A stretch of DNA of 64,000 nucleotides from NCBI GenBank assembly GCA_022239325.1, contig JAKOGP010000001.1:332870-396869 (forward strand), given 5' to 3'. Below are positions 43,073-50,014 of the stretch, piece after piece (position 1 is the first letter of the stretch; the number at the start of each line of letters is the position of its first letter). A model generated the notes under the pieces. The model worked only from the letters and a program-made list of their open reading frames with translations. It was not told where the DNA came from and ran no database searches. Source of the stretch: Flavobacteriaceae bacterium LSUCC0859 (GTDB lineage Bacteria > Bacteroidota > Bacteroidia > Flavobacteriales > Flavobacteriaceae). The translations under genes and the position numbers were made by a program.

Positions 43073-43137
43073 GAAACACTACAAAGACCAGTAAATAATT
43101 CCTGTTTTATAACAGGACTATGAAAGAGAAACTATTA

Positions 43138-43176
43138 AAATCACAAAGCCGCTGCATGGCTTTGTGATTTTTTTTT
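43138..43176 (+). terminator. Terminator after yceI
   Basis: AATCACAAAGCC / GGCTTTGTGATT with a 7-base loop is followed by a run of T. It insulates the trp promoter, whose -33 box starts 9 bases later. Confidence 0.92.
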
Positions 43177-43184
43177 ATCCAGGC

Positions 43185-43214
43185 TTGGATAATCTCAAAG
43201 GTTTACTATATTTG
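43185..43214 (+). promoter_or_regulatory. Promoter of the trp operon
   Basis: TTG (43185-43187), exactly 19 bases, then TATATTTG (43207-43214). It is a full match to the Bacteroidota consensus. The predicted start site is about 43219, the A of the leader-peptide ATG. Confidence 0.88.
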
Positions 43215-43218
43215 AAGT

Positions 43219-43275
43219 ATGAATACAAAGCAAAAAAATATTTGGTGGTGGAACAACTTACAACAAACGCTGTGA
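43219..43275 (+). CDS. trpL: trp operon leader peptide with three consecutive Trp codons
   Basis: The 18-residue frame MNTKQKNIWWWNNLQQTL carries TGG-TGG-TGG at 43243-43251 and ends at TGA 43273-43275. It lies between the trp promoter and a terminator, in front of trpE, so it fits a leader peptide whose translation senses charged tRNA-Trp. Three adjacent Trp codons in 18 are far beyond chance. There is no room for a ribosome-binding site: the ATG is 4 bases after the -7 box, so it is probably read from a leaderless transcript. Confidence 0.9.
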   Translation: MNTKQKNIWWWNNLQQTL

Positions 43276-43277
43276 GC

Positions 43278-43336
43278 TAAGCACTACTTTTAACATATAC
43301 AAAAGGCTTGTCTACACAGACAAGCCTTTTTCTTTT
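43278..43336 (+). terminator. trp attenuator (terminator plus antiterminator)
   Basis: The terminator is a 13-bp stem AAAAGGCTTGTCT / AGACAAGCCTTTT (43301-43313 and 43318-43330, loop ACAC) followed by TCTTTT. A competing antiterminator is visible: TAAGC (43278-43282) and CTTTT (43287-43291) can pair with AAAAG and GCTTG (43301-43310), leaving a 4-base bulge. A ribosome stalled at the Trp codons leaves this segment free. A ribosome at the stop codon would cover it and let the terminator form. Confidence 0.85.
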
Positions 43337-43394
43337 AAGAACCAATCAAAACTGAAGTAAAGCATAAGCCAAAAGGCAAAAAAAACAAACAAAA

Positions 43395-44795
43395 ATGAGT
43401 TACGCTTTAAAAACAGACTACAAAAAAATCCTAGCAGACACTATTACCCCAGTGAGTGTCTACCTAAAAATCAGGGATAAATTCCCAGGAAGTATTTTAC
43501 TGGAGAGTAGTGACTATCACGCCAATGACAACAGCTTCTCTTATATCTGTTTTAACCCCATTGCTCATATAGAGGTCAAAAACAAGCAGCTCACCCAAAG
43601 TTTTCCAGACGGTAGCACCCAACAAACCCCCATTGTCCCAGACACCGATATTCCTGCCGCTGTGACTACTTTCTCAGAGCAATTTAAAACAGAAAAACAA
43701 GATTTTAAATTTATTACACAGGGTCTTTTCGGTTTTATGACCTATGACGCAGTTCAGTATTACGAAGATATTGCCATACATAAAAAAGAAGGGGGGCAAG
43801 ACCTGCCAGAGCTGTATTACGCAGTGTATAGGAATGTGATAGCTATTAATCACTTTAACAATGAGGCCTATATTTTTGCGCATAGCTATAAGCAGAATTC
43901 CAATATAGCGGAAATTGAACAACTCATAGCTGTTAAGAATTTTGCTACCTATCCTTTTAAAACAGAAGGAAAACCAAAAATTAATATCGAAGACCAAGCC
44001 TACATGAAATTGGTGGAGACCGCCAAGCAACATTGCCAACGTGGGGACGTATTCCAATTGGTTCTTTCTAGAAGGTTCAGCCAACAGTTTAGCGGAGACG
44101 AGTTTAATGTGTACAGGGCCCTACGCTCTATTAACCCCTCCCCCTATCTGTTTTTCTTTGACTATGGCAACTTTAAAATTTTTGGAAGTTCCCCTGAGGC
44201 ACAATTAGTTGTAAAAGACAATAAAGCAGAAATTCATCCCATTGCTGGAACCTTTAAACGCTCTGGAAACGACGAGAAAGACGCTCAGTTGGCTAAGAGC
44301 CTCACGGAAGATCACAAGGAAAATGCAGAGCATGTCATGCTGGTAGATTTGGCTAGAAATGACCTCAGCCGACACGGTAAAATGGTAGCAGTAGAAAATT
44401 ACAGAGAGGTGCAGTTTTTCTCCCATGTCATTCATCTAGTGTCTAAAGTAACAGGAATGAAGAAGCCCAACACTCCTACTATGTCTGTGGTGGCAGACAC
44501 TTTCCCTGCTGGCACCCTGAGTGGCGCTCCAAAACACAAGGCCATGGAACTCATAGAAAAATATGAACCTACTCCCAGAGGCTACTACGGCGGGGCCATT
44601 GGCTTTATGGATTTTCAAGGCAATTTTAATCACGCCATTATGATCAGGACCTTTTTGAGTAAAAACCACGAATTACAGTATCAGGCGGGAGCCGGTATTG
44701 TAGCAGCCTCAGACGCGGCTTCAGAATTGCAAGAAACCTACAACAAACTAGGGGCGCTTACCAAGGCCTTAGAAATAGCTCAAGATATTGTTTAA
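43395..44795 (+). CDS. trpE: Anthranilate synthase component I
   Basis: Makes anthranilate from chorismate with ammonia supplied by TrpG. The 466-residue protein has the LLES motif (residues 35-38) that forms the tryptophan feedback site. The chorismate-binding domain shows IHPIAGTFKR, HVMLVDLARND, and GTLSGAPKHKAMELI. It is the first structural gene after the attenuator and is 9 bases from trpG. It is chosen over pabB because of its operon and the LLES site. Confidence 0.97.
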   Translation: MSYALKTDYKKILADTITPVSVYLKIRDKFPGSILLESSDYHANDNSFSYICFNPIAHIEVKNKQLTQSFPDGSTQQTPIVPDTDIPAAVTTFSEQFKTEKQDFKFITQGLFGFMTYDAVQYYEDIAIHKKEGGQDLPELYYAVYRNVIAINHFNNEAYIFAHSYKQNSNIAEIEQLIAVKNFATYPFKTEGKPKINIEDQAYMKLVETAKQHCQRGDVFQLVLSRRFSQQFSGDEFNVYRALRSINPSPYLFFFDYGNFKIFGSSPEAQLVVKDNKAEIHPIAGTFKRSGNDEKDAQLAKSLTEDHKENAEHVMLVDLARNDLSRHGKMVAVENYREVQFFSHVIHLVSKVTGMKKPNTPTMSVVADTFPAGTLSGAPKHKAMELIEKYEPTPRGYYGGAIGFMDFQGNFNHAIMIRTFLSKNHELQYQAGAGIVAASDAASELQETYNKLGALTKALEIAQDIV

Positions 44796-44804
44796 GACTG
44801 CTTT

Positions 44805-45404
44805 ATGAATACAGATAACCACATATTATTGATCGATAATTACGACAGTTTTACCTATAACCTGGTACATTACCTAGAAGACCTAGGCGCCCAGGTAGAC
44901 GTCTTTAGAAATGATAAAATTTCATTAGAAGCGGTAAACACCTACAGCCATATAGTTCTTTCTCCAGGTCCTGGAATTCCTGAGGAAGCTGGACTACTCA
45001 AAGAAATTATTAAGACCTATGCCCCTACTAAAAAAATTTTTGGGGTGTGCTTGGGACAGCAAGCCATTGCAGAGGTATTTGGTGGCCAATTGGAAAACCT
45101 CTCCCAGGTATTTCACGGAATAGCCACGCCCATCCAAGTAAACCCCCAGGCACCGCTTTTTAAAGACTTAGACACCACTTTGGCCGTTGGCCGATACCAC
45201 TCTTGGGTGGTGGCTGCTCCCCTACCGGACTGCTTAGAAATTACCGCTACAGACGCAGCTGGACAAATCATGGCTTTACAACACAAAGAATACGATGTTC
45301 AATCTGTGCAATTCCATCCGGAATCTATCTTAACCCCATCAGGAAAAAAAATGCTAGCCAATTGGTTGGATGTCCCATTTGACTTTTCCGAGCAAAAAGC
45401 CTAG
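44805..45404 (+). CDS. trpG: Anthranilate synthase component II (glutamine amidotransferase)
   Basis: The 199-residue class I amidotransferase that supplies ammonia to TrpE. The catalytic triad is C82 in GVCLGQQ, and H171 and E173 in FHPES. The start DNYDSFTYNLVHYL is typical. It is a separate protein, not fused to trpD. It can also serve PabB in some bacteria. Confidence 0.96.
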   Translation: MNTDNHILLIDNYDSFTYNLVHYLEDLGAQVDVFRNDKISLEAVNTYSHIVLSPGPGIPEEAGLLKEIIKTYAPTKKIFGVCLGQQAIAEVFGGQLENLSQVFHGIATPIQVNPQAPLFKDLDTTLAVGRYHSWVVAAPLPDCLEITATDAAGQIMALQHKEYDVQSVQFHPESILTPSGKKMLANWLDVPFDFSEQKA

Positions 45405-45428: not shown

Positions 45429-46415
45429 ATGAAAGATATACTTAACAGACTTATTTTGCATGAAGCACTAAATGCTAAAGAGGCCAAAGAGGTGCTCATA
45501 GGTATTGCAAATGCGAAATACAATGTCTCTCAAATAGCCTCCTTCCTCACTGTTTATATGATGCGGAGCATACAATTAGAAGAGTTAGAGGGGTTCAGAG
45601 ACGCCTTGTTGGAACTCTGTGTTCCGGTAGACCTTTCCCAGTACAATCCCATTGACCTCTGTGGTACAGGTGGGGACGGTAAAGACACTTTTAATATCTC
45701 TACCCTGGCTTCCTTTGTTACGGCAGCCCAGGGTGTTAAAGTAACTAAACACGGGAATTATGGAGTTTCTTCCAGCTGTGGGAGCAGTAATGTTATGGAG
45801 GCTTTAGGTATTAAATTCACTGCAGACAAAGACTTTCTAGAAAAAGCTCTAGATCAGGTGGGCATTTGCGTCTTGCACGCACCGCTCTTTCACCCAGCCA
45901 TGAAACAAGTAGCGCCTATTAGAAAGGCCCTTGGAGTAAAAACCTTTTTTAATATGCTAGGCCCTATGGTAAATCCAGCCTTCCCTAAAAATCAGATGGT
46001 AGGGGTCTTTAACTTAGAGTTAGCCAGAATGTATGCGTATTTATACCAGAAAACAGATAAGAATTTTAGTATTGTTCACGCCTTAGACGGCTATGACGAA
46101 GTCTCTCTCACTGGAGACACCAAAGTAATAAGTAGGCAGTCTGAGAGAGTGCTAAGACCTGAAGACTTTCAGGTGAGCCGTCTTGCAGCTGAAGATATTG
46201 CTGGTGGAGAAAGCGTAGCCAGTGCGGCAAAGATCTTTGTAGATATTTTAAGCGGAAAGGGAACGAGCGCTCAAAATCATGTGGTCTGTGCCAATGCGGC
46301 CTTGGCTGTAAACACCGCTACTGGTGTGGGATTAGAAACGGCATTCGAAAGGGCCATGGACAGTCTTAAAAACGGTGCAGCACTTAAAAAATTACAACAA
46401 TTACAAGCCTTGTAG
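45429..46415 (+). CDS. trpD: Anthranilate phosphoribosyltransferase
   Basis: Transfers phosphoribose from PRPP to anthranilate. The 328-residue protein has the PRPP-binding CGTGGDGKDTFNIST near residue 79 and KHGNYGVSSSCGS near residue 109. The order and length are normal. It follows trpG by 24 bases and is followed by a 68-base gap, the largest inside the operon. Confidence 0.97.
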   Translation: MKDILNRLILHEALNAKEAKEVLIGIANAKYNVSQIASFLTVYMMRSIQLEELEGFRDALLELCVPVDLSQYNPIDLCGTGGDGKDTFNISTLASFVTAAQGVKVTKHGNYGVSSSCGSSNVMEALGIKFTADKDFLEKALDQVGICVLHAPLFHPAMKQVAPIRKALGVKTFFNMLGPMVNPAFPKNQMVGVFNLELARMYAYLYQKTDKNFSIVHALDGYDEVSLTGDTKVISRQSERVLRPEDFQVSRLAAEDIAGGESVASAAKIFVDILSGKGTSAQNHVVCANAALAVNTATGVGLETAFERAMDSLKNGAALKKLQQLQAL

Positions 46416-46483: not shown

Positions 46484-47269
46484 ATGAATATTTTAGACCG
46501 AATAATTGCAGATAAAAGAATAGAGGTGGCTTTAAAAAGCCGTCTGGTTTCTGTGTCATATCTAGAGACTGCGGCTCTTTTTGAGCGTCCTTGTGTGTCC
46601 ATGGCCACTGCCATTCAAAAGAGTGCTTCTGGAATTATTGCAGAACACAAGCGCCGCTCTCCCTCAAAAGACGTAATAAATAATAGTCTTAAGCTAACTG
46701 AAGTAGTACAAGGATATACCCAAGGAGGGGTCTGTGGTATTTCTGTTCTCACAGACGGTCCCTATTTTGGTGGAGCGCTCGAAGACCTTCTTTTAGCCAG
46801 AGCCAGTGTAAACACCCCACTGCTTAGGAAAGATTTTATAATCTCTGAATACCAGATCATAGAGGCCAAGGCCCACGGGGCAGATGTAATCTTACTTATA
46901 GCTGCAGTTTTGAGCAAAGAAGAAATTAAAAAATTCTCTGAGCTGGCCCAGTCCCTGGGAATGGAAGTACTCTTAGAAGTACACGACTCAGAAGAGTTAG
47001 AAAAATCTATCATGCCCTCATTAGATATGGTTGGTGTAAACAACCGCAACCTAAAAACTTTTGAGGTATCTCTTGAAACTTCTAAGTCATTAACAGAACG
47101 CATTCCTTCAGAGTTTGTTAAAATCTCTGAAAGCGGGCTTTCTCAGGCGGCGGCTGTAAAAGAACTTCAATCTTTTGGCTACCAGGGCTTTTTAGTGGGT
47201 GAAAACTTCATGAAAACTAATGATCCTGGGGCAGCCGCCGCACAATTTGTAAAACAAATAGAAGCCTAG
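46484..47269 (+). CDS. trpC: Indole-3-glycerol-phosphate synthase
   Basis: The 261-residue TIM barrel that closes the indole ring. Catalytic Lys and Glu are seen in IIAEHKRRSPSK (strand 1), LLRKDFIISEYQI (strand 3) and LLEVHD. GVNNRNLKTF and KISESGLS mark later strands. It is monofunctional and is 2 bases before trpF. Confidence 0.97.
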   Translation: MNILDRIIADKRIEVALKSRLVSVSYLETAALFERPCVSMATAIQKSASGIIAEHKRRSPSKDVINNSLKLTEVVQGYTQGGVCGISVLTDGPYFGGALEDLLLARASVNTPLLRKDFIISEYQIIEAKAHGADVILLIAAVLSKEEIKKFSELAQSLGMEVLLEVHDSEELEKSIMPSLDMVGVNNRNLKTFEVSLETSKSLTERIPSEFVKISESGLSQAAAVKELQSFGYQGFLVGENFMKTNDPGAAAAQFVKQIEA

Positions 47270-47271
47270 CC

Positions 47272-48015
47272 ATGTCACAGCCAAAGCATACGAATATACC
47301 GCCCCAGACCCCGGGCATACCAAAGAAGCCCCTGCTTAAAGTTTGTGGCATGAGAGATCCTGAAAACATAGCTTCTGTTGCTAGCCTACAGCCAGAATTT
47401 ATGGGTTTTATTTTCTGGGAAAAATCCAAGCGTTTTGTTCGCGAGGTACTTCCGGAACTGCCAAAAACTATAAAAAAAATTGGGGTAGTGGTAGGTGCTT
47501 CGGAAGAGGAGGTACTCCATCTCATAGAAAAGCAAGGCCTGGACGGCATACAATTGCACGGTAAAGAATCTCCCGCCTTTTGTGAGGCCCTAAAAAACAG
47601 TTTAAAAAAAGCATCCTTTGCCAAAGAAGGAGATTACTCCTCTAGGCCCCAAACAAGCCCTATCCTTATAAAGGCATTTTCTGTGGGTACCAATTTTGAT
47701 TTTAAACAGCTTAAAGCCTATGAACCATATTGCGATTATTTCTTATTTGACACCAAAGGAAAATTACCAGGAGGCAATGGACACTCCTTTTCCTGGTCAC
47801 TATTAAAAGACTACCCTTCCAAAATACCCTACTTTCTCAGTGGGGGTATTGGTTTGGATAGCTTAGATAAATTATCTGATTTTTTAAACGATCCAGCCGC
47901 CAAACAATGTGCTGTTATAGATGTAAATAGTACTTTTGAACTATCAGATTACACCAAAGATGTGAATGCCCTAGCCCAATTTAAAAATAGATTAGAAAAC
48001 CTGACCTCTCTTTAA
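47272..48015 (+). CDS. trpF: Phosphoribosylanthranilate isomerase
   Basis: The TIM-barrel isomerase, 247 residues. The first strand with the catalytic Cys is [13 protein letters not shown], and the catalytic Asp is in YFLFDTKG, followed by [10 protein letters not shown] Pro-rich N-terminal extension of about 20 residues and an insertion near residues 115-130 make it longer than the usual 200-210. The ATG directly follows the trpC stop (2-base gap). Confidence 0.95.
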
Positions 48016-48028
48016 AAACCCCTATACT

Positions 48029-49216
48029 ATGAAAAAGTCTTATCATGTAGATGAAAACGGATATTACGGCACCTTTGGTGGTGCATATATTCCAGAAATG
48101 CTATTTCCCAACACAGAGGAACTTAGAACACAATATCTAGATATTATGAACTCTGAGGACTTTCAGGAAGAATTTCAGGCCCTGCTCAAAGACTATGTAG
48201 GGCGGCCCACTCCACTGTATTTTTCCAAGCGACTCTCGGAATTATACCGCACTAAAATCTATTTAAAAAGAGAAGATCTTTGCCATACTGGAGCCCATAA
48301 AGTAAACAACACCATAGGACAAATTCTCATGGCCAAACGTTTGGGGAAAACCCGAATTATTGCAGAGACAGGCGCCGGACAGCACGGGGTTGCCACAGCT
48401 ACTGTCTGTGCCCTTATGGGGATGGAATGCGTGGTGTATATGGGCGCTGTAGACATTAAACGTCAGGCTCCCAATGTAGCAAGAATGAAAATGCTTGGGG
48501 CTACAGTTCGTGCGGCAGAGTCTGGAAGCAAGACCCTGAAAGACGCCACCAATGAGGCCATTAGAGACTGGATTAACAACCCGTTAAATACGCATTATAT
48601 TATAGGTTCTGTAGTGGGCCCCCACCCCTACCCAGACATGGTAGCCCGTTTCCAGTCGGTTATTTCCCAGGAGATCAAAAGCCAACTCTTGGAAAAAGAA
48701 GGCCGGGAATACCCAGACCACGTAGTGGCCTGTGTGGGCGGCGGCAGCAATGCAGCCGGCGCCTATTATCACTTCTTAGACCAAGAGCAGGTAAATATCA
48801 TTGCGGTAGAAGCCGCAGGAAAAGGTATAGATACTGGGGAGAGTGCTGCTACCTCTGCCTTGGGCAAAGAAGGGATCATTCACGGCAGCAAAACCCTTCT
48901 CATGCAAACCCCAGATGGACAAATTACTGAGCCCTACTCTATTTCTGCTGGTTTAGACTATCCAGGGGTAGGGCCCATGCACGCCCATTTGTTCCAATCT
49001 AAAAGGGCAGAATTTATTTCTGTAACCGACCAAGACGCCATGGCAGCCGGCCTACTACTATCTGAAATGGAAGGCATTATACCTGCTATTGAAACCGCTC
49101 ATGCCTTTGCCATTTTTGAAAACAGACCCTTTAAAGAAGACGAGATTGTGGTAGTGAATCTCTCTGGAAGAGGAGACAAAGATTTGAATACTTATATTGA
49201 TTATTTTAAATTGTAA
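48029..49216 (+). CDS. trpB: Tryptophan synthase beta chain
   Basis: The 395-residue PLP enzyme joining indole and serine. The PLP Lys is K91 in HTGAHKVNN. The phosphate-binding [10 protein letters not shown] and the [12 protein letters not shown] segment are intact. It is the TrpB1 type that pairs with TrpA, whose gene follows after 9 bases. Confidence 0.98.
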
Positions 49217-49225
49217 ATAAGCAAG

Positions 49226-50014
49226 ATGTCACAAGCTACAACCGTTCCCAATAGAATTAAGACCCGAATGGCAGACCCTAAAAAAGTCCTGTCTATTTAC
49301 TTTACTGCAGGCTATCCCAAATTAGAAGACACTACTAAAGTATTGCAACAGCTGCAAGACAGTGGTGTAGATTTGGTAGAAATAGGGCTGCCCTTTAGCG
49401 ACCCTTTAGCAGACGGCCCCACCATTCAAGACAGCTCTACTGCCGCCTTAAAAAATGGCATGACTACCACACTGCTCTTTGAGCAGCTTAAAGAGATTAG
49501 AAAAAGTATTCACATCCCACTGATTATCATGGGCTACTTTAACCCCATGCTTCAATACGGTGTAGAAACTTTTTTAGCCCAATGTGCCGCCATAGGAATA
49601 GACGGCATTATTATGCCAGACCTTCCCTTGGCAGAATATGAGCTACATTACAAGGCGCTTTTTGAAAAATACGGGATTAAAAATATATTTCTCATTACCC
49701 CCCAAACCTCAGAAGCTAGAATACAAGCGATAGACGCTGCCTCTGACGGTTTTATTTACCTGGTGAGTACAGCCTCAGTTACAGGGAGCAAAAGTGGTTT
49801 TGGAACGGAACAAGAAGCCTATTTTAAAAGGATTGCGGCTATGAATCTCAAAAATCCCCTAGTAGTGGGCTTTGGGATACACGACGCCCATACTTTTAAG
49901 CAAGCTACAACGCACACCTCAGGCGCCATAATAGGTTCTGCTTTCATTAAAACTCTAACCCAAGAAGGGCTTGCCGGAATAGATCCTTTCATTAAAAGTC
50001 TTAGACCTCATTAG
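49226..50014 (+). CDS. trpA: Tryptophan synthase alpha chain
   Basis: The 262-residue TIM barrel that splits indole-3-glycerol phosphate. The catalytic Glu and Asp are in LVEIGLPFSDPLADGP and in GIIMPDLPL. The phosphate-binding GFGI and GSAF segments are at the end. It is the last trp gene. No clear terminator was found after it, so transcription may continue into the small gene at 50097. Confidence 0.97.
   Translation: MSQATTVPNRIKTRMADPKKVLSIYFTAGYPKLEDTTKVLQQLQDSGVDLVEIGLPFSDPLADGPTIQDSSTAALKNGMTTTLLFEQLKEIRKSIHIPLIIMGYFNPMLQYGVETFLAQCAAIGIDGIIMPDLPLAEYELHYKALFEKYGIKNIFLITPQTSEARIQAIDAASDGFIYLVSTASVTGSKSGFGTEQEAYFKRIAAMNLKNPLVVGFGIHDAHTFKQATTHTSGAIIGSAFIKTLTQEGLAGIDPFIKSLRPH

Follow-up and report, generated by a model that had tools for sequence, protein, structure and literature searches.

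The trp leader of Escherichia coli (trpL) encodes a short peptide that contains Trp codons, its transcript can adopt protector, antiterminator and terminator conformations, and its stop codon is placed such that the terminating ribosome covers the antiterminator strand. In the alphaproteobacterium Sinorhizobium meliloti, the leader transcript (trpL/rnTrpL) begins at the ATG of the leader ORF (PMC7298713), which is a precedent for a leaderless leader-peptide mRNA and a likeness without shown sequence relation to the locus described here. The sRNA and the peptide of the S. meliloti leader also have roles in trans. Within the Flavobacteriaceae, leader-peptide attenuators were inferred for Flavobacterium psychrophilum, where structured 5' regions lie ahead of amino-acid operons; the main-text passages on these attenuators mention neither the trp leader nor its antiterminator (PMC9723704). 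The Bacteroid-trp motif (RF01692) was reported by Weinberg 2010, where the main-text passage merely lists it (PMC2864571), and a full-text search of open-licence papers found no account of Bacteroid-trp switching, a weak sign of novelty.

Here, we describe the leader of the trp genes of Flavobacteriaceae bacterium LSUCC0859 in a window of 64,000 nucleotides, the whole stretch of DNA that was analysed. The leader is a real attenuator, ordinary in kind and a member of the catalogued family; what is added here is the identity of the antiterminator together with a leaderless subclass, which is a prediction. It resembles E. coli trpL in its Trp-codon peptide, the three conformations and the placement of the stop codon. 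In contrast to E. coli, there are three Trp codons, no Shine-Dalgarno sequence and probably no 5' UTR, and the partner of the conserved strand is the loop of the terminator together with the top of its 3' arm, not the 5' arm alone.

The trp locus and its Bacteroid-trp leader

The trp genes are arranged in the order trpEGDCFBA, all in one direction and with short gaps (Table 1). By the curated NCBIfam cut-offs, TrpE and TrpF stay below though their best matches are correct, and each of the remaining trp genes passes one. By TrpE sequence, the nearest named relatives (85-88% identity) are several uncultured Flavobacteriaceae and Flavobacteria bacterium MS024-3C. Upstream, a gene at 42482-43072 matches the YceI family weakly, under its cut-off, and a bidirectional terminator sits between this gene and the trp transcription unit, separating the two.

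A search of 401 bases with the Rfam models gave a full-length match to RF01692 at 43200-43312 (model positions 1-131, E-value 1.3e-5), scoring 52.3 bits against a curated cut-off of 49, and this was the sole Rfam match above cut-off in the region. The leader shares with Bacteroid-trp the phylum Bacteroidota, the position upstream of trp genes, the run of Trp codons ahead of a terminator, and the terminator 5' arm. The model ends within that arm (GGCUUGUC) and thus lacks the whole terminator and the pairing between stop-codon segment and loop. The E. coli trp leader model of Rfam gave no match, neither at its gathering threshold nor at E-values up to 10. The first-pass annotation had presented the element as E. 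coli logic in Bacteroidota; with a match above cut-off to a family catalogued in 2010, it is not a first. RF01692 was present in 109 of 149 genera of the Flavobacteriaceae (one genome per genus) and sparser beyond the family, with 17 of 119 genomes in the sample of the order and 30 of 296 in that of the phylum, mostly from the same family.

Upstream of the leader ATG, the frame is closed by a TGA at 43213-43215, which excludes an earlier start codon. In 105 of the 109 loci, a leader ORF starting with ATG was recovered whose peptide is 13-22 residues long and has WW or WWW around residue 9; the other four carry the same peptide with TTG or GTG as start. Since the WWW peptide, a stop-proximal element and the terminator recur together across all 109 loci, the leader is more than a chance arrangement. 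The 18-codon frame with three consecutive TGG codons and its stop, as drawn in the first-pass annotation, agrees with the sequence, and in the relatives WWW proved near-invariant. As a side observation, GTG or TTG replaces ATG as start of the leader ORF in L111 and L112 (same genus), L030, L045, L095 and L082. Within 464 kb of the genome, the trp leader was the only leader peptide with an amino-acid run that was found next to both a -7 element and a terminator.

Table 1. Features of the trp locus (positions in the window)
Feature	Position	Strand	Details
Bidirectional hairpin intrinsic terminator	43137-43171	+	15-bp stem, loop of 5, T tail
-33-like element CTTG (consensus TTTG)	43184-43187	+	19 nt ahead of the -7 element; sequence; TTTG-N19-TATATTTG-like layout in leaderless relatives
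-7 promoter element TATATTTG	43207-43214	+	sequence; fits the Bacteroidota sigma consensus TAHHTTTG
Predicted transcription start, A or U of leader AUG	43219-43220	+	inferred from the 4-5 nt spacing rule
Leader peptide ORF MNTKQKNIWWWNNLQQTL	43219-43275	+	ATG 43219, stop TGA 43273-43275, 18 codons plus stop
TGG TGG TGG, three Trp codons, predicted ribosome stall site	43243-43251	+	WWW kept in nearly all of 105 relatives
Protector 5' arm CUUACA	43257-43262	+	pairs with UGUGAG 43271-43276 in untranslated RNA; MFE fold
Antiterminator 5' strand CUGUG(AG), overlapping stop codon	43270-43276	+	loop complementarity in 105 genera, covariation, folding
Inner antiterminator strands UAAGC and CUUUU	43278-43291	+	pair with GCUUG 43306-43310 and AAAAG 43301-43305; stalled-state fold
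Terminator hairpin	43301-43330	+	arms 43301-43313 and 43318-43330, loop ACAC 43314-43317; 13 pairs, 5 GC
Antiterminator 3' strand CACAG, running from the terminator loop into the first two bases of the 3' arm	43315-43319	+	complementarity, covariation, folding
Terminator T-rich tail TTTTTCTTTT	43327-43336	+	sequence; first four T double as stem base
trpE, anthranilate synthase component I	43395-44795	+	TIGR00564 best match, 430 bits, under cut-off 518
trpG, glutamine amidotransferase component	44805-45404	+	TIGR00566 above cut-off
trpD	45429-46415	+	TIGR01245 above cut-off
trpC	46484-47269	+	NF001377 above cut-off
trpF	47272-48015	+	NF002298 best match, under cut-off, and operon position
trpB	48029-49216	+	TIGR00263 above cut-off
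trpA	49226-50014	+	TIGR00262 above cut-off

Terminator, antiterminator and their mutual exclusion

Folding of the leader is much stronger than expected by chance, for which the terminator is largely responsible: the minimum was -31.3 kcal/mol compared with -17.4 ± 3.1 kcal/mol for shuffled sequences (z = -4.5), and none of 200 shuffles was as good. In an alignment of 108 sequences, six of eight pairs of the terminator stem showed changes on both sides and 100% of the cells were paired. The 13-bp terminator with its T run had already been recognized in the first-pass annotation and was confirmed in the sequence. Its 5' arm GGCUUGUC (43305-43312) is nearly invariant in more than 100 genera and, where it is altered, the 3' arm follows. 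This invariance exceeds what stem pairing needs, and the arm may have a second role, either in the antiterminator or in a leader RNA that acts in trans like that of S. meliloti.

The conserved antiterminator is an outer helix between the stop-codon region and the terminator loop. Its family form pairs (G)UCGUGA at the stop codon with UCACGA(C) in the loop and the top of the 3' arm; in the window, CUGUG (43270-43274) faces CACAG (43315-43319). The longest complement between the segment after WWW and the terminator loop had a mean length of 6.66 bp, compared with 3.87 bp for shuffled segments, and wherever the pairing is recognisable it starts -9 to +11 nt from the stop codon. The 108-sequence alignment had 87.8% of the cells of this helix paired, with changes on both sides in four of seven pairs, a tally of sequences and not of events in an alignment that is near-invariant for the most part. 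Sliding the partner by 1-3 columns reduced pairing to 50% or less, and none of 500 shuffles reached the observed value in any of five measures, a count that ignores relatedness and is not a probability. Exchanging loops between genera gave 6.31 pairs for mismatched and 6.66 for matched combinations, with strands that are near-identical in most genera.

Stronger still than these counts is the support from divergent versions, which keep the pairing in changed sequence. They comprise UUGUCGCAAU:AUUGCGACAA in L081, GUGAG:CUCAC in L061, L076 and L109, and, read by eye in two members of other families (L172, L182), GUCGUA:UGCGAC with one G-U pair. In the genus of LSUCC0859 the version is CUGUGA:UCACAG (L113, L114 and MS024-3C, our L197), in which, relative to the family form, one U is added to the upstream strand and one A opposite it, a matched U:A pair. 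In the window, UUCACAG is replaced by UACACAG, which leaves five of the six genus pairs, and the helix measures 5 bp here as opposed to 6-8 in most relatives. L068 was excluded from alignment and state-dependent folding because the automatic terminator search took the wrong hairpin; by eye, it pairs AAGUGA with UUCACU. As a separate observation, the first 400 bases of L177 (same order, another family) hold two attenuators in tandem, both equipped with a WWW peptide and a terminator of their own, and the second has TGCGGGA opposite TTCCGCA in the terminator loop.

Inside the outer helix, 43278-43291 can pair with 43301-43310, the antiterminator of the first-pass annotation, and both inner helices stack within the outer one in the window, resulting in one long antiterminator. 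The inner helix does form in the stalled state, and the 4-base bulge noted earlier (ACUA) is correct for the helix as drawn, but this is not the conserved, covarying part. AAGC or GAGC facing GCUU recurs in some relatives, the diagnostic G:C pair being restricted to 25 of 106, and CUUUU:AAAAG is peculiar to this genome and absent from its closest relatives L113 and L114. On these pair counts, the inner helix was rejected as the conserved core of the antiterminator. Compensatory changes, which the first-pass annotation proposed to look for in relatives, were found in the outer helix and the terminator stem, whereas none in the inner helix stood clearly above controls. Support for the protector is mixed to weak across the family (60.6% paired, with a slide of -3 equally good); the leadered class uses another sequence than CTTACG:CGTGAG and is not fitted by the alignment columns.

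We folded the leader with increasing 3' ends for different ribosome positions. In the RNA downstream of a ribosome stalled at the Trp codons, the probability of the outer antiterminator was 0.98-1.00 at exposed 3' ends 43319-43321 and at least 0.92 up to 43323, whichever of the six tried combinations of stall position and footprint was used. The inner pairs had probabilities of 0.98-1.00 at 43319-43323, slightly ahead of the transcription of the outer helix. In this state the terminator won only once 43324-43325 was exposed, as opposed to a dominant terminator from 43321-43322 with the ribosome at the stop codon or with no ribosome. Over 104 genera, the mean probability of the outer antiterminator was 0.98 with a stalled ribosome, 0.33 without translation and 0.01 with the ribosome at the stop, the last value being largely built in since the strand under the ribosome is removed from the fold. 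Shuffling the free segment lowered the mean loop pairing from 6.66 to 1.78 pairs. Folding and covariation together thus point to mutually exclusive antiterminator and terminator structures set by the position of the ribosome, and the spacing logic of the first-pass annotation, antiterminator upon stalling and terminator with the ribosome at the stop, was reproduced by folding. At equilibrium, and from 43325 onward, the completed terminator of the window is more stable than the antiterminator even when the ribosome is stalled, so the decision would have to be kinetic.

Promoter spacing and the predicted 5' end

In Bacteroidota the -7 promoter element has the consensus TAHHTTTG, and transcription in F. 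johnsoniae starts 4 or 5 nt past it (PMC6847099). Between the end of TATATTTG at 43214 and the leader ATG there are 4 nt. From this spacing and the Flavobacterium promoter rule, a leaderless leader mRNA is predicted; with the promoter this close to the ATG there is no space for a 5' UTR, and the leader peptide is probably read from such a transcript. What had been called a perfect promoter is near-perfect only, since the -33-like element deviates from the consensus in one base.

This spacing recurs in the family. Among 99 RF01692 members with a recognisable -7 element, the distance to the ATG was 4-5 nt in 20, of which 18 had exactly 5 and one, L015, is doubtful because it has another element at 18 nt; only one member had a distance of 6, and a second mode lies at 14-21 nt. 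For ordinary genes, taken from 400 kb of this genome plus the 64-kb window (464 kb), only 2 of 62 with a -7 element had a spacing of 4-5 (Fisher p = 0.002, relatedness among relatives being ignored). Named relatives fall into the same two modes, 4-5 and 15-18, and the genus holds a spacing of 4 while the four bases in between vary (aagt, aact, atat, aaac). On a tree of TrpE N-termini, which is poorly supported, the leaderless state changed at least 10 times. For comparison, the main-text passages on F. psychrophilum put leaderless mRNAs at 5.5% (PMC9723704).

Further observations concern single genomes. The GTG of L111 and L112 follows the -7 element by 4 nt, and the spacing is 5 in L175, a locus of the same order outside the family. 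In the whole genome (G000), the pattern TAHHTTTGNNNNATG matched 46 times and its reversal 17 times; leaderless start codons may therefore serve other genes as well. L113 has a second TATCTTTG element between terminator and trpE, downstream of the attenuator, which is absent in L114 and could allow transcription of trpE without attenuation.

Proposed mechanism and alternative readings

We consider it very probable that trpEGDCFBA is controlled by a ribosome-mediated transcription attenuator of the Bacteroid-trp type with an antiterminator at the stop-codon segment. From the computed parts, their conservation and covariation, and the state-dependent folding, we infer transcription start, leaderless initiation, stalling and termination as follows. 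RNA polymerase would start at, or at most 1 base from, the leader AUG, and a ribosome would load at the 5' end. Whenever charged tRNA-Trp runs short, this ribosome would stall on UGGUGGUGG and cover the protector arm, freeing 43270-43276 to pair with 43315-43319 while the inner helices (43278-43291/43301-43310) stack on this pairing. This antiterminator would delay the terminator and trpE would be transcribed. When Trp is plentiful, the ribosome would reach the UGA at 43273 and hide 43270-43276, and the terminator would form. Without translation, 43270-43276 would be kept in the protector hairpin and the terminator would form likewise. The conservation of WWW, the covariation and the folding all support ribosome-mediated attenuation with a Trp-codon leader, as first proposed from the sequence, and the leader almost certainly switches the trp genes off by an early stop of transcription when tryptophan is plentiful.

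Other readings of the locus were weighed against this mechanism. Attenuation of the E. coli type, with 43278-43291 pairing to the terminator 5' arm and no part for the stop-codon segment, would agree with the near-complete formation of these pairs in the stalled state (43319-43323), with AAGC or GAGC opposite GCUU in a subset of relatives, and with the geometry of L175, where TCAAAGTCTT near the stop codon is complementary over 10 bp to AAGACTTTGA in the 5' arm of the terminator. It is nevertheless quite improbable, given that compensating changes keep the outer helix and that the inner one lacks covariation clearly beyond controls, has its G:C pair in a minority of sequences and loses CUUUU:AAAAG in L113 and L114. 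Any element sensing a metabolite or protein without a ribosome (T-box, TRAP target, Trp riboswitch) could fit between promoter and terminator ahead of trpE. Such sensing is highly improbable here: RF01692 alone exceeds its cut-off, the T-box model had no match in the region, the 82 nt from 43219 to 43300 contain one GAG and no UAG compared with about 11 triplets of a TRAP site, and what is conserved are the codons and the stop-codon region. A constitutive leader, in which the short ORF is fortuitous and the terminator merely lowers basal trp expression, can hardly be credited, as WWW, the stop-proximal element and the terminator loop are kept with compensating changes in more than 100 genera.

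The remaining alternative concerns the 5' end, namely that transcription starts from another upstream promoter, the leader is not leaderless and the spacing of TATATTTG is coincidental. The rarity of such spacing among the ordinary genes of this genome and a start site that is only predicted would be in line with it. It appears unlikely in view of CTTG 19 nt ahead of TATATTTG, the constant spacing with changed bases within the genus, the accumulation of family members at exactly 5 nt, and the terminator at 43137-43171, which bounds the unit upstream. On balance, we favour the combination of a recurrent leaderless subclass, with the promoter 4-5 nt from the AUG, and a family-wide antiterminator between the stop region and the loop and 3' arm, which is unlike the textbook arrangement and apparently undescribed.

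With the pairing strands named and natural compensating variants to copy, a catalogue entry becomes a testable switch. If the leaderless subclass is true, the first ribosome loads directly at the 5' end, in a phylum without Shine-Dalgarno pairing, and such loading would suit a device for which a ribosome must be in place by the time ~100 nt have been transcribed.
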